From contig WRKO01000012.1 in NCBI GenBank assembly GCA_009782215.1, positions 1 through 64,000 on the forward strand: a DNA stretch of 64,000 bases, in the 5' to 3' direction. The translations under genes were made by a program, and so were the position numbers. Under the pieces are notes generated by a model that saw only the letters and a program-made list of their open reading frames with translations, did no database searches and was not told the origin of the DNA. Source of the stretch: Oscillospiraceae bacterium. GTDB taxonomy: Bacteria > Bacillota > Clostridia > Oscillospirales > UBA929. The stretch's first letter is position 1, and each line of letters begins with the position of its first letter. This document shows, one piece after another, positions 52,227 to 61,388 of the stretch.

Positions 52227-53945
52227 GTGAAACTGCTTTGGCGTTTGGCGCGGGAAGCGTCCCGTTTCAAAGGGCTGTACACCGTTTCCATTCTGTCCAC
52301 GCTGCTGCTGACCGGGCTGCATGTGGGCGCGCCCATGCTGCTGCGGGAGATGACGCGGCTGGTGGAGGAAAAGACGGAGGATTTTTCGCAAATCGGGCGG
52401 ATTGCCGTCATTTTGCTGGCAGTCTACCTTATTCAGACGTTCTTCCGCTTCATCGCCTACTACTCCGCCCATGTGGCGGCGTGGAATCTGGTGGAGGATA
52501 TGCGCGTCCGTATCTACAATAAAATCCAGTCCCTCTCCATGCGGTACTTCCACGACAAGCAGACCGGCGACCTGATGAGCCGCGTCGTCAACGACACCGC
52601 CAATTTTGAGCAGCTCTACGCCCACATCATCCCGGAAATGATTGCCGACGTCCTCACCGCGGGGGGCGTCATCACCATCCTGCTCCTCCTCAACGCGCGG
52701 CTGGCGCTGCTGACCTGTATCCCGATTCCCTTTATCATTTTCGGAGGGTGGGTTTTCTCCAAAAAAATACGGCCGCATTTCCGCGAGGCGCAGAAGGCCG
52801 TCGCGGGCGTCAACGCGAAGTTGCAGGACAATTTCTCCGGCATCGCCGAAATTCAGGCGTTCGGGCGTGAGCGCGACGAGTCGGCGGCGGTGCGGGAGCA
52901 GGCGGGCGGCTATACCAAAGCCATCCTGCGCGCCCTCAAGCTGGCCAACTTCTTCCATCCGGTGGTGCAGTTTTTCTCCTCGGCGGGAACGGTCATCGTC
53001 GTGGGGTTCGGCGGCTGGCTGGCATACCGCAATCAACTCTCGGTGGCGGACATTGTGGCGTTTCTGCTCTATCTGGGGCTGTTTTACGCCCCTATATCCA
53101 GACTGGCGCAGATGCTGGAGAATATGCAGTCGGCGTACGCCGGGGCGGAGCGCGTCGTGGCGGTGCTGGACGCGGAGCAGGACATCAAGGACGCGCCCGG
53201 GGCAAAGGACATCGCGCCGGCGGAAGGCGCCGTCGCCTTCCACAACGTCTCCTTCCGCTACGAGGAGGATATCCCCGTGCTGAAAAACGTCAGCTTTTCC
53301 TGCAAGCCGGGGCAGATGGTGGCGCTGGTAGGGCCGACCGGGGTGGGGAAAACCACGCTGACGCAGCTTGTGGGCCGTTTTTACGACCCGGACGAAGGCT
53401 TTGTGACGCTGGACGGAACGGACATCAGAACGGTCAAGGTCGCGTCCGTCCGCGAGCATATAGCGCCGGTGCTGCAAGACACCTTCCTCTTCAACGGCAC
53501 GCTGGCCCAAAATATCGCGTATTCCAAGCCCGGCGCGGCGACGGAGGAAATCATCGAAGCCGCCAAAGCCGCCAACATCCACGAAACCATCCTCGAAATG
53601 CCGGACGGCTACGAAACGCTGGTAGGGGAGCGCGGCCTGCGCCTGTCGGGCGGGCAGAAGCAGCGCGTCGCCATCGCCCGCGCCATCCTGCGCAAGGCGC
53701 CCGTCATCATCCTTGACGAAGCCACGGCGTCGGTGGATACCGAGACGGAAAAAGAGATACAGGCCGCCATCGCAGGCCTGCACAACCGCCACACCATCAT
53801 CGCCATCGCCCACCGCCTCTCCACCATCCGCCGCGCCGACCTGATTCTAGTGCTGGAAAACGGCGAAATCGTCCAGCGGGGAACGCATGACGAGCTCATG
53901 GCTGAGGACGGGCTGTACAGGCGGCTGTCAAAGATTCAGGGGTAA
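52227..53945 (+). CDS. ABC exporter, fused membrane and ATPase domains
   Basis: 572 residues, half-size exporter of the MsbA/MdlB type. Six membrane helices (about 1-310) precede the ATPase: Walker A GPTGVGKTT (from about 369), signature LSGGQKQR (from about 473) and Walker B VIILDEATA, then the H-loop in IAIAHRLST. It works as a homodimer or with a partner, but no second half-transporter is adjacent. The GTG at 52227 has AGGGAGGA upstream. The substrate is unknown. Confidence 0.93.
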   Translation: MKLLWRLAREASRFKGLYTVSILSTLLLTGLHVGAPMLLREMTRLVEEKTEDFSQIGRIAVILLAVYLIQTFFRFIAYYSAHVAAWNLVEDMRVRIYNKIQSLSMRYFHDKQTGDLMSRVVNDTANFEQLYAHIIPEMIADVLTAGGVITILLLLNARLALLTCIPIPFIIFGGWVFSKKIRPHFREAQKAVAGVNAKLQDNFSGIAEIQAFGRERDESAAVREQAGGYTKAILRALKLANFFHPVVQFFSSAGTVIVVGFGGWLAYRNQLSVADIVAFLLYLGLFYAPISRLAQMLENMQSAYAGAERVVAVLDAEQDIKDAPGAKDIAPAEGAVAFHNVSFRYEEDIPVLKNVSFSCKPGQMVALVGPTGVGKTTLTQLVGRFYDPDEGFVTLDGTDIRTVKVASVREHIAPVLQDTFLFNGTLAQNIAYSKPGAATEEIIEAAKAANIHETILEMPDGYETLVGERGLRLSGGQKQRVAIARAILRKAPVIILDEATASVDTETEKEIQAAIAGLHNRHTIIAIAHRLSTIRRADLILVLENGEIVQRGTHDELMAEDGLYRRLSKIQG

Positions 53946-56130: not shown

Positions 56131-56202
56131 CGCGCGCCTCCGGGTTATTTTTTCTTGCAAAGCCATATACTGTATAGTATACTGTTCGGGAAGGATGATG
56201 GT

Positions 56203-56940
56203 ATGCGGATAGACGGCATAGACGTGCATGAGACGGTCATGGGCAGCGGGCCGCCCCTGTTGTTCCTGCACGGCTGGGGGGTTGGGCATGAGAGTTATCT
56301 GCCGCTGCTGAACCGGCTCGCCGTGACGCACACCGTCTACGCGCCCGATATGCCGGGGTTCGGCAAGACGCCGGAGCCGGAGACGGCGTGGGGCGCGGAC
56401 GGGTATGCCGACTTTGTTTCGGCGTATTGCGCGGCGAAGGGCTTGACCGCGCCGGTGTGCGTGGCCCATTCCAACGGAGGACGCGTCCTGCTACGGCTTT
56501 TATCGCGGGACGAACCGGGCGTCGCGCCGCCCCGCGTGGTTTTGTTCGACGCGGCGGGGCTGAGGCCGAAACGCGGGTTAAAGCGTACCGCCAAGGTCTA
56601 TACTTACAAAGCGGGAAAAATCCTGCTCAAACCTTTTCCCAAGGCGCTGGAGCGCTACCGCGCGGGCAAAGGCTCCGCCGATTACCGCGCCGCGTCTCCG
56701 CTGATGAAGGCGGTGATGAGCAAGCTGCTCGCCGTCGATTTGTCGGGCGGCCTGCCGAACATCAAAGCGCCGATCCTTTTGGTTTGGGGCGAGGACGACA
56801 CCGCGACGCCGCTTGCCGACGGGCGGAGGATGGAGCGGCTGATTCCGGGCGCGGGACTGGCGGTGTTGCCGGGGGGCCATTGGGCGTTTATGGAGCGCCT
56901 ACCGCATACGATGCGGATTTTAGACAGTTTTTTGCGCTGA
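56203..56940 (+). CDS. alpha/beta-hydrolase
   Basis: 245 residues. The nucleophile Ser is in AHSNGG, Asp in WGEDDTATP and His in GGHWAF, a complete triad. FLHGWGVG is the oxyanion motif. The broad family includes esterases, haloperoxidases and C-C hydrolases, and the substrate is undetermined. The ATG at 56203 follows GGGAAGG; a 16-residue extension was rejected. The gene's stop is the first base before the parS palindrome. Confidence 0.88.
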   Translation: MRIDGIDVHETVMGSGPPLLFLHGWGVGHESYLPLLNRLAVTHTVYAPDMPGFGKTPEPETAWGADGYADFVSAYCAAKGLTAPVCVAHSNGGRVLLRLLSRDEPGVAPPRVVLFDAAGLRPKRGLKRTAKVYTYKAGKILLKPFPKALERYRAGKGSADYRAASPLMKAVMSKLLAVDLSGGLPNIKAPILLVWGEDDTATPLADGRRMERLIPGAGLAVLPGGHWAFMERLPHTMRILDSFLR

Positions 56941-56962
56941 AATGTTTCACGTGAAACATTTC
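56939..56962. promoter_or_regulatory. parS centromere site (ParB/Spo0J binding)
   Basis: TGTTTCACGTGAAACA at 56943-56958 is a perfect 16-bp parS, the consensus bound by chromosomal ParB/Spo0J. The symmetry extends to 24 bp (56939-56962). In other bacteria parS sites cluster near the replication origin. It lies between an alpha/beta-hydrolase stop and a Mur ligase start. No parA or parB is in the window. Confidence 0.93.
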
Positions 56963-57003
56963 GCAGGGAAATTCAGAACAAAATACAAGATATGGAGGCT
57001 GCG

Positions 57004-58473
57004 ATGGGGGCGATTATTCTATATGTTGTTTTCGGGGTGTTCACGCTCCTCATCACAGTCCGGTTTATGCATATGTTTCAGCTCGCCTCCTACCAGTTTC
57101 CCGGCTATCGGCGCTGGATGAAAAGCGAGGGATGGAGGTTCCCGGTAAATTACATTCCGTTATATCCGCACGGCAAGGCGAAAACCCCTCTCAAACACAC
57201 AAGCAGGGTCATTCGGATAGAGCTTACACATGGATTATTACTATTCGTAATCATGGTTTCGGCATGGTTTACCGGCGGCTTGGCTCAATATATCATCCTC
57301 GCGGCCATGTTTATCGGTGCGCCCTTTCTCCTCCCGCTCGCAAACCTTTTGCTCTCGCCGGTGCAGAAGGCGGTCAACGATTGGTATATCCGCGACGCGC
57401 AGCGGATGATGCGGAAAGACCTGATTGTCGTCGGCGTCACGGGCAGCTACGGAAAAACCTCGGTCAAGACATACATCGCGCAGCTTTTGTCGGTCAAATA
57501 CAACGTCTTGGCCACGCCCGCCAGCTACAATACCCCGATGGGCGTCGTACGCGCCATCCGCGAGAATTTGCTGCCCAGCCATCAGGTCTTTGTCTGCGAA
57601 ATGGGCGCGCGGCATACCGGCAACATCAAAGAGCTGTGCGGCATCGCCCGCCCCCTGCACGGGGTGCTGACCGCCATCGGCCCGCAGCATCTGGAAACCT
57701 TCAAGACGATTGAAAACATTGCCAAGACGAAGTTTGAGCTGATTGACTCGCTCCCCCCGGAGGGCACAGCCTTCCTCTGCTGGAACAACCCCGTCATCCG
57801 CGAACACGCCAAAGACCGCCGCGCGGTACGATACGCCGTTTTAGACGCCGGCATCGGCACAGATGGGCTGGATATTTACGCGGAGAATCTGGCGGCGGAC
57901 GCGGGGGGCGTATCGTTTGATATCGTCACCGGAGCGGGGGAGCGGGAGCGGTTTACCTGCGGCCTGCTGGGACGCCACAACGTCCAAAACGTCACCGCCG
58001 CCGCCGCCGTCGCGTTGCATTTGGGCGTCCCTCTGCGCGACATGGTTCCGGTCGTGCGCGCCCTCAAGCCCGCCAGACACCGCTTGGAGCTGCTCCCCAA
58101 GGGACAGGGGCTGACCGTCATCGACGACGCGTATAACGCCAATCCCGCCGGGGCCGCCGCCGCGCTGGAAGCGCTCTCGCTTTTCGGCGGCGTGAAAATC
58201 ATCGTCACGCCCGGCATGGTGGAGCTGGGAGCGCTGGAGGAAGCCGAAAACCGCGCGCTTGGCGAAAAAATCGCCAAGGTGTGCGATTACGCGGCGCTGG
58301 TGGGGGAGAAGCAGGCCCTGCCTATCGCGGAAGGCTTGCGCGCCGCGGGGTATCCCGCCGAACGAATGGGGATATTCGATTCATTCGACAACGCATATCA
58401 ATGGGCGGCCGGCATCGAAGCGGAGGAAAAGGTCATCCTCCTTGAAAATGATTTGCCGGACAACTACAGATAG
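57004..58473 (+). CDS. membrane-tethered Mur ligase, MurF-like
   Basis: 489 residues. Two or three N-terminal membrane helices (about 1-110) precede a Mur ligase core: ATP loop VGVTGSYGKTSVK (about 143-155), GHAR-like central motifs and DDAYNANPAGAAAAL, the MurF-type segment. MurF joins UDP-MurNAc-tripeptide to D-Ala-D-Ala, which fits the ddl gene immediately downstream. A membrane-bound form is common in Clostridia. I chose the ATG at 57004 because GGAGG is 5 bases upstream. Confidence 0.88.
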   Translation: MGAIILYVVFGVFTLLITVRFMHMFQLASYQFPGYRRWMKSEGWRFPVNYIPLYPHGKAKTPLKHTSRVIRIELTHGLLLFVIMVSAWFTGGLAQYIILAAMFIGAPFLLPLANLLLSPVQKAVNDWYIRDAQRMMRKDLIVVGVTGSYGKTSVKTYIAQLLSVKYNVLATPASYNTPMGVVRAIRENLLPSHQVFVCEMGARHTGNIKELCGIARPLHGVLTAIGPQHLETFKTIENIAKTKFELIDSLPPEGTAFLCWNNPVIREHAKDRRAVRYAVLDAGIGTDGLDIYAENLAADAGGVSFDIVTGAGERERFTCGLLGRHNVQNVTAAAAVALHLGVPLRDMVPVVRALKPARHRLELLPKGQGLTVIDDAYNANPAGAAAALEALSLFGGVKIIVTPGMVELGALEEAENRALGEKIAKVCDYAALVGEKQALPIAEGLRAAGYPAERMGIFDSFDNAYQWAAGIEAEEKVILLENDLPDNYR

Positions 58474-58521: not shown

Positions 58522-59691
58522 ATGAAAATGAGGGTTGGCGTATTCTTTGGCGGCAGGAGTGTCGAGCATGAGGTTTCGGTCATTACCGCGATGCAGGCGG
58601 CGGCGGCGCTCAACAGGGAGACCTATGAGGCCGTGCCCGTCTATCTGACCAAGGACGGCGGGATGTTCACCGGGCCGGGCTTTGAAACGCTGAAAAGCTA
58701 TCAAAACATCCCCGCCCTGCTTGAAAGCGGGCGTCAGGTCTGTTTGGCGCGGACGGACGGGCGGCCGGCGCTGCAAGCCTGCTCCAAAAAGCTCTTCGGC
58801 GACAAGCCCGTCTTCCTCGACGCCGCGCTGCCCGTGGCGCACGGCACGTTCGGCGAGGACGGATGCCTGCAAGGGCTGTTTGAGATGACGGAGCTTCCGT
58901 ATGCGGGCTGCGACGTTCTCTCAAGCGCCATTTGCATGGATAAGCCGTCGTCCAAAGCCCTGCTGCGGGCGTCCGGCCTGCGGGTTCTGGACGATTTGGT
59001 GCTGGAAGCCGACCGCTACAACAAAAGCCCCGAGGTTGTGCTGAACGCGCTTGAAACCCATTATCCCTACCCGGTGATGGTCAAGCCCGCCAACCTCGGC
59101 TCCTCCGTGGGCATCAACAGGGCCGACAACCGCGACCGCCTGCAAGCGGCCCTTGAGCTGGCGTTTTCCTTCTCGCCGAGGGCGCTGATTGAAACGGCGC
59201 TGATTCATATGCGCGAAATCAACTGCGCCGTCCTCGGCGACGGCTCAAAGGCGCGGGCCTCCGTATGCGAGGAGCCGGTGATGACGGAAAACTACCTCAG
59301 CTACCGCGACAAATACCAGTCGGGCGGCAAGAGCGGCAAGCAAAGCGGGCTGTCGGGGCAGAAGCGCGTCATCCCCGCCGACATCCCGGAGGAAATGGCG
59401 GCGGAGATTCAAAGGCTGGCCGTGAAAGCGTTTCAAAGCCTTGGCTGCTCCGGCGTGGCGCGGATTGATTTCCTGTGGGATACGCTGCATGACATTCTCT
59501 ACATCAACGAGCTGAACACCATCCCCGGTTCGCTGGCGTTCTATCTTTGGGAAAAGTCCGGGCTGCCCTTCGATAAGCTGCTGGATGAACTGATTGAGCT
59601 GGCTTTCGCGCGCCAGCGCCGCCGCGCCGGGCTTACCTATAGCTGCGACGTGAATATCCTTCAAAACGCAGAATTAAAGGGAAAGGAATGA
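58522..59691 (+). CDS. ddl: D-alanine--D-alanine ligase
   Basis: 389-residue ATP-grasp ligase making D-Ala-D-Ala for the peptidoglycan stem. GVFFGGRSVEHEVSV opens the protein; LPVAHGTFGEDGCLQGLFEM and KPANLGSSVGI are the ATP-grasp core, and FLWDTLHDILYINELNTIPG closes the active site. It is not recognisably a D-Lac or D-Ser ligase. Pairs naturally with the MurF-like gene upstream. Longer than E. coli Ddl, with an insert near 245-275. Confidence 0.92.
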   Translation: MKMRVGVFFGGRSVEHEVSVITAMQAAAALNRETYEAVPVYLTKDGGMFTGPGFETLKSYQNIPALLESGRQVCLARTDGRPALQACSKKLFGDKPVFLDAALPVAHGTFGEDGCLQGLFEMTELPYAGCDVLSSAICMDKPSSKALLRASGLRVLDDLVLEADRYNKSPEVVLNALETHYPYPVMVKPANLGSSVGINRADNRDRLQAALELAFSFSPRALIETALIHMREINCAVLGDGSKARASVCEEPVMTENYLSYRDKYQSGGKSGKQSGLSGQKRVIPADIPEEMAAEIQRLAVKAFQSLGCSGVARIDFLWDTLHDILYINELNTIPGSLAFYLWEKSGLPFDKLLDELIELAFARQRRRAGLTYSCDVNILQNAELKGKE

Positions 59692-59696
59692 CACGA

Positions 59697-61388
59697 ATGA
59701 AATTTTCCGAAGTGACCTACAAGCGCCCCATACTGGAGGAGGTCAAAGCCGAGCTGACCCGTCTGCTTGAGGCGTTCAAGGCGGCCAAAACGCCGGAAGA
59801 GGCGTTTGCCGTCTACAAGCGCTGCGACGAATACGGCAACAGCGTTTCCGCGATGGGCGCGGTGGCGTACATCCGCAACTCGATGGACACCACCGACGAG
59901 TTCTACAACAAGGAAAAAGCCTACTTCGACGAGGTCGGGCCGGAAATTCAGGAATACGGCCAGAAGCTCAACCTCGCGCTGGTCGAGTCGCCCCACCGCG
60001 CCGCGATGGAAAAAGAATTCGGCAAGCTGATGTTCCTCAACACCGAGATGGAGCTGAAAACCTTCTCGCCGGAGATTATTGCCGATTTGCAGGAGGAAAA
60101 CAGGCTCTGCACCGAATACGACAAGCTCCTCGCCAGCGCGCAGATTGAGTTTCGCGGCAAGACCTACACCCTCGCCCAAATGGGGCCGTTCCACGAAGAC
60201 ACCGACCGCGCCACGCGCAAGGAAGCCCGCGCCGCCGCCACCGCATGGTTCATGGAGCAGCGCGAGGCACTCGACCGCATCTTCGACGAGCTGGTGCGCC
60301 TGCGCGATACGATGGCAAAAAAGCTGGGGTACGCGTCGTTTACCGAGCTGGGGTATTACCGCATGACGCGCAACTGCTACGACGAAACTATGGTGGACGT
60401 CTTCCGTCAGCAGATTCAAAAGCACATCGTCCCCGTTTCCGAACGGCTCAAGGCCGAAAAAGCCAAGCGCATCGGCGTGGAGCGCGTCACCGTTTACGAC
60501 GACGCGCTGGATTTCCTCTCCGGCAACGCCAAGCCGCAGGGCACGCCGGACGACATCTTCGCCCACGGGAAGAAGATGTACACCGAGCTGTCGCCCGAAA
60601 CGGCGGAGTTCTTCGATTACATGCTGGAGTGCGACCTGTTTGACGTGCTGACCCGCAAGGGCAAGTCGCCCGGCGGGTACTGCTACTCCATCGGGGCGCT
60701 CAAGATGCCGTTCATCTTCGCCAATTTCAACGGCACCTCGGGCGATATCGACGTCCTGACGCACGAGGCGGGCCACGCCTTCGCGGGCTACAACGCGTTT
60801 GACATTTACCCGTCGGCGTTGCAGGACTATTCCAGCGAGACGGCCGAGGTTCACTCGATGAGCATGGAGTTTTTCACATGGCCGTGGATGGAGGGCTTTT
60901 TCGGGGCGCAGACCGGCAAATACCGCTACGCACACCTCGCCGGGGCGCTGACCTTCCTGCCGTACGGCACGATGGTGGACGAATTCCAGCACCACATCTA
61001 CGCCAACCCCGGCTGGACGCCCGCCCGCCGCAACGAGTGCTGGCTGGAGCTGGAAGCCAAGTACCGCCCGTACCTTGACTTGGATTTTGACTTCTACCGT
61101 GAGGGACGCCGCTGGCAGGCGCAGGCACACATCTACGAGCGCCCGTTTTACTACATCGACTACTGCCTCGCCCAGACAATGGCGCTGGCGTTCTGGGCGG
61201 AAGCGCAGAAGGACTTCAAGGCGGCATGGGCGAAATACCTGCAATTCCTCAAGCTGGCCGGGACGAAAACCTTCACCGACTTGGTCGCCGGAGCCAACCT
61301 CCCAAGCCCATTTGCCGAGGGCTGCCTGAACACCGTAGCGTCCGCCGCCGCAAAATGGCTGGACGAAAACCCCGTGGAGGATCAATAG
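59697..61388 (+). CDS. M3-family oligoendopeptidase
   Basis: 563 residues, PepF/oligopeptidase type. The zinc motif is H356-E-A-G-H360 in LTHEAGHAFAGY, with the second Glu ahead in SSETAEVHS. It degrades imported peptides in the cytosol. I set the start at 59697 (MKFSEVTYKRP), the family opening, 9 bases after AAAGGA; an ATG at 59688 overlapping the ddl stop is less likely. It ends before a strong terminator. Confidence 0.93.
   Translation: MKFSEVTYKRPILEEVKAELTRLLEAFKAAKTPEEAFAVYKRCDEYGNSVSAMGAVAYIRNSMDTTDEFYNKEKAYFDEVGPEIQEYGQKLNLALVESPHRAAMEKEFGKLMFLNTEMELKTFSPEIIADLQEENRLCTEYDKLLASAQIEFRGKTYTLAQMGPFHEDTDRATRKEARAAATAWFMEQREALDRIFDELVRLRDTMAKKLGYASFTELGYYRMTRNCYDETMVDVFRQQIQKHIVPVSERLKAEKAKRIGVERVTVYDDALDFLSGNAKPQGTPDDIFAHGKKMYTELSPETAEFFDYMLECDLFDVLTRKGKSPGGYCYSIGALKMPFIFANFNGTSGDIDVLTHEAGHAFAGYNAFDIYPSALQDYSSETAEVHSMSMEFFTWPWMEGFFGAQTGKYRYAHLAGALTFLPYGTMVDEFQHHIYANPGWTPARRNECWLELEAKYRPYLDLDFDFYREGRRWQAQAHIYERPFYYIDYCLAQTMALAFWAEAQKDFKAAWAKYLQFLKLAGTKTFTDLVAGANLPSPFAEGCLNTVASAAAKWLDENPVEDQ

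Follow-up and report, generated by a model that had tools for sequence, protein, structure and literature searches.

The window, by which we mean the whole 64-kb stretch of DNA that was analysed, comes from a draft assembly referred to here as G000 (2.355 Mb, 54 contigs, 93% complete), which together with its congeners G001-G005 makes up a genus set of six genomes. A parS core lies in the gap that separates an alpha/beta-hydrolase gene from murF-ddl (Table 1) and ends 45 bp before the likely start of murF, an ATG at 57004 which is preceded by GGAGG at 56994-56998. The description of this region as a cell-wall gene neighbourhood, given in an earlier note on the same DNA, is borne out by the domain assignments of murF and ddl; the note had also described the site as an exact 16-bp ParB/Spo0J consensus that extends to a 24-bp palindrome, and the match and the symmetry are both perfect over the intervals listed.

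Table 1. Features at and around the parS site, with positions in the window.
Feature	Position	Strand	Remarks
ABC transporter	52227..53945	+	Upstream, within the same conserved neighbourhood
Alpha/beta hydrolase gene	56155..56940	+	PF00561; stop TGA 56938-56940 touches the palindrome
Perfect 24-bp palindrome	56939..56962	.	GAAATGTTTCACGTGAAACATTTC; encloses the core; extension not kept in relatives
parS core	56943..56958	.	TGTTTCACGTGAAACA; exact 16-bp consensus; kept in place in 5/6 genus genomes
murF-type Mur ligase	56992..58473	+	TIGR01143, PF08245
ddl, D-alanine--D-alanine ligase	58522..59691	+	TIGR01205
M3-family oligoendopeptidase	59688..61388	+	TIGR02289; orthologue in G007 8 kb from parS

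Under a first-order Markov model of the window, the parS 16-mer is expected 9e-6 times per 64 kb and 3e-4 times per genome. A count of parS over the full genome, which the earlier note had proposed, gave four exact copies in the whole 2.355-Mb draft, and a scan of the same assembly for sites with one or two mismatches gave none. As the extra 4 bp on each side of the window site are not common to the other copies, the signal is confined to the 16-bp core.

Comparison of the hydrolase-murF gap across the six genomes found an exact parS in G000, G002 and G005 and TGTTTCATGTGAAACA in G001 and G003, the single change being identical in both; the gap of G004 is without parS. Over the five genomes that carry the site, the core is on average 96% identical between pairs, vs. 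28% and 31% for the 30-bp flanks on either side, which is chance level, and the simplest reading of this contrast is that selection acts on the site itself. The second G000 site, downstream of fhs (formate-tetrahydrofolate ligase), is kept in G000, G001, G002, G003, and G005, and the third, which lies inside tsaB and encodes MFHVKQ, is kept in G000, G001, and G003; the fourth, on contig C28, was seen in G000 only. Placement beside murF is a feature at the level of the genus, since no parS was found there at any murF locus fetched from outside the genus, nor at 80 loci from Clostridia more distantly related. All three conserved parS of G003 (C102:4459, C111:6490, and C112:2503) read TGTTTCATGTGAAACA, leaving that genome no canonical parS, and the same variant is restricted to the murF site in G001.

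An inverted repeat which directly follows a stop codon could also be a chance palindrome or an intrinsic terminator with no role for ParB. However, the tiny chance expectation and the limitation of conservation to the core speak against this, conservation in place already contradicts it, and we give it practically no weight; a terminator was rejected specifically because the site has no T-tract and no terminator was called there.

The family has no closed genome, so contigs were linked through orthologues, and for the murF locus the links to the origin were drawn from several fragmented genomes. Contig C5 of G001 carries dnaA and noc alongside orthologues of G000 C28; contig C6 of G004 carries spo0J, soj, and parS, with fhs-locus orthologues approximately 24 kb off and a tsaB-locus orthologue approximately 41 kb off. 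The soj gene adjoins rpiB-argS genes of G000 C5 in G002 C88, and noc adjoins the right end of G000 C23 in both G005 C123 and G002 C8. Contig C7 of G022 joins the murF locus itself to a block collinear with G000 C5 and to genes from both C28 and the G001 dnaA contig; the G007 contig on which the M3 peptidase orthologue lies 8 kb from parS also contains dnaA, spo0J, and noc. In G009, an orthologue of the gene directly upstream of the G004 hydrolase-murF pair lies 1.2 kb from parS. Linkage in relatives to dnaA, noc, and soj-spo0J therefore points to an origin-domain location for all four G000 sites, with the murF-locus parS assigned there indirectly. A probable location near oriC, as first suggested for the window, is thus upheld by comparative linkage of the murF neighbourhood, albeit indirectly for this site; the GC skew of the window is weak and gives no position for oriC. 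Sequence alone can in this way mark the origin domain for a genus of uncultured Clostridia.

Chromosomal parS normally adjoins parAB. For the soj-spo0J operons of G001 (C35), G002 (C88), and G003 (C18), the contig has no parS even when three mismatches are allowed; a parS does adjoin soj in G004 and, outside the genus, in relatives that include G007 and G009. The genus is mostly without a parAB-adjacent parS, and its sites sit upstream of murF, downstream of fhs, and inside tsaB, an arrangement which is mildly unusual; a search of the literature on parS placement in Clostridia with tsaB found nothing relevant. These genomes show how parS sites move in evolution, as individual genes retain their sites while the parAB-adjacent copy is lost. 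For specialists, the leads offered are this loss, which affects most of the genus, and the one-base change common to all conserved sites of G003.

No ParB gene lies inside the 64-kb window, and the original remark that no parAB is present is true of the window; elsewhere in the genome soj was found on contig C52, and the congeners carry soj-spo0J. The G000 Soj (C52:2235-2999, L293) is 69-73% identical to the Soj of G001-G003, with 69% to that of G001, the latter three being 82-87% identical among themselves. The next gene on C52 is not spo0J and looks, from its sequence, like a HAD phosphatase, and the place of the G002 spo0J-soj genes is taken in G000 (C5:3604-5008) by others that resemble genes for a sigma factor and its partner. 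Contamination as the origin of C52 was not supported, the contig having the composition usual in this genome, though the divergence of its Soj exceeds expectation. An SMC gene is present on contig C5.

Specificity in the ParB/Noc family is set by four residue positions (PMC7383237), and proteins with R173...G201 were taken as Spo0J-type ParB. The Spo0J of four congeners have R-A-A-G, R-A-S-G, or R-T-S-G at these positions; in the Spo0J of both G001 and G003 the sequence GQAR takes the place of the GH of G002 and G004. The 93%-complete G000 assembly yielded no Spo0J-type ParB; its sole ParB_N protein is Noc-type and lies on contig C19. As four exact sites, one of them observed in G000 only, would be unexpected without an active parS-binding ParB, we infer that Spo0J is probably located in the unassembled part of this genome.

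Being the only ParB-family protein assembled, in a genome whose assembled soj has no spo0J neighbour, the Noc-type protein might instead be the binder of these parS sites. However, it has Q-K-R-R at the four positions, close to the NBS-binding set QKKR (PMC7383237), and the congeners have Noc and Spo0J both. Separate NBS-like sites are also present, as G000 matches the Noc site TATTTCCCGGGAAATA within three mismatches at 29 places vs. three for a reversed control, an enrichment which is as expected if Noc has sites of its own. NBS (ATTTCCCGGGAAAT), which is bound by the ParB paralogue Noc, is a palindrome similar to parS, but at the two positions that discriminate between them the window site carries the parS bases, and it does not match the ATTTCCCGGGAAAT core. 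Binding by Noc was rejected on the specificity residues and the separate NBS-like sites, and we consider it very improbable.

The reading we favour, with a probability of roughly 0.9, is that this is a functional chromosomal parS and that the origin domain of the chromosome, which belongs to an uncultured member of the Clostridia, contains at least four such sites. Because related bacteria retain the site at this same origin-proximal position, the copy upstream of murF is almost certainly a real, if ordinary, chromosome-segregation site. The 16-bp palindrome is identical to the Spo0J parS of B. subtilis (consensus TGTTNCACGTGAAACA), and G000 resembles ParABS systems in having few copies, clustered in the origin domain, together with Soj and SMC, with Spo0J present in the congeners; it differs from them in that most of the genus has no exact site next to soj-spo0J and that Spo0J is absent from the G000 assembly. 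By extension from known ParABS biology, a dimer of a Spo0J-type ParB would load at the parS upstream of murF, close as a CTP clamp and slide onto the adjacent DNA, and the resulting ParB cluster would be moved by Soj and recruit SMC, so that sister origins separate.

A regulatory role has also to be weighed, in which a co-opted parS would let ParB, on binding to the murF leader, repress murF-ddl expression or set its timing and so couple cell-wall precursor synthesis to origin segregation. The site is intergenic and directly upstream of murF in five genomes, and in G001 a promoter-like TTGATA-N17-TACAAT lies just upstream of it on the murF strand. In P. aeruginosa, the intergenic parS3 and parS4 repress PA0011 and PA0013 (PMC7022226); the window site resembles them in being intergenic, in the origin domain and immediately ahead of a gene, and in P. 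aeruginosa repression of that gene was shown. By this analogy ParB may possibly regulate murF. However, the spacing from site to murF start differs among genomes, and in the window no promoter-like sequence close to the site is directed into murF. Since the further sites kept in place are found after fhs and within tsaB, retention of parS requires no promoter, and in B. subtilis the loss of Spo0J has no effect on parS-adjacent genes (PMC7022226). Local control of murF by ParB thus seems unlikely.

A wider proposal is that the genus has for the most part lost parS beside parAB and fixed it at distant conserved spots, that the murF site serves in addition as a switch by which the synthesis of cell-wall precursors is linked to origin segregation, and that one lineage shows a joint shift of ParB (H-to-Q next to G201) and parS (CACGTG to CATGTG, at all its sites); this we regard as a speculative combination which is quite unlikely to hold as a whole. 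The pairs of parS and Spo0J in the congeners nevertheless provide a natural test of joint change in ParB and parS.

Two further observations concern genomes outside the genus. Clostridia-like murF genes were found on public-MAG contigs labelled Synergistaceae or Alistipes (L117, L128, and L182), which are possibly mislabelled or misbinned. The G014 genome (1.2 Mb, 64% complete), from another genus of the same family, contains 35 exact parS (L042, L276-L286), and its two congeners have one each. Many of the G014 copies lie within a dispersed repeat (AAAATGTTTCACGTGAAACATTTT...GGGTGCGACATTT...GACATCGGCGCG) present on many contigs; five are inside one repetitive ORF, and eight are arrayed beside spo0J at a spacing of mostly ~48 bp.
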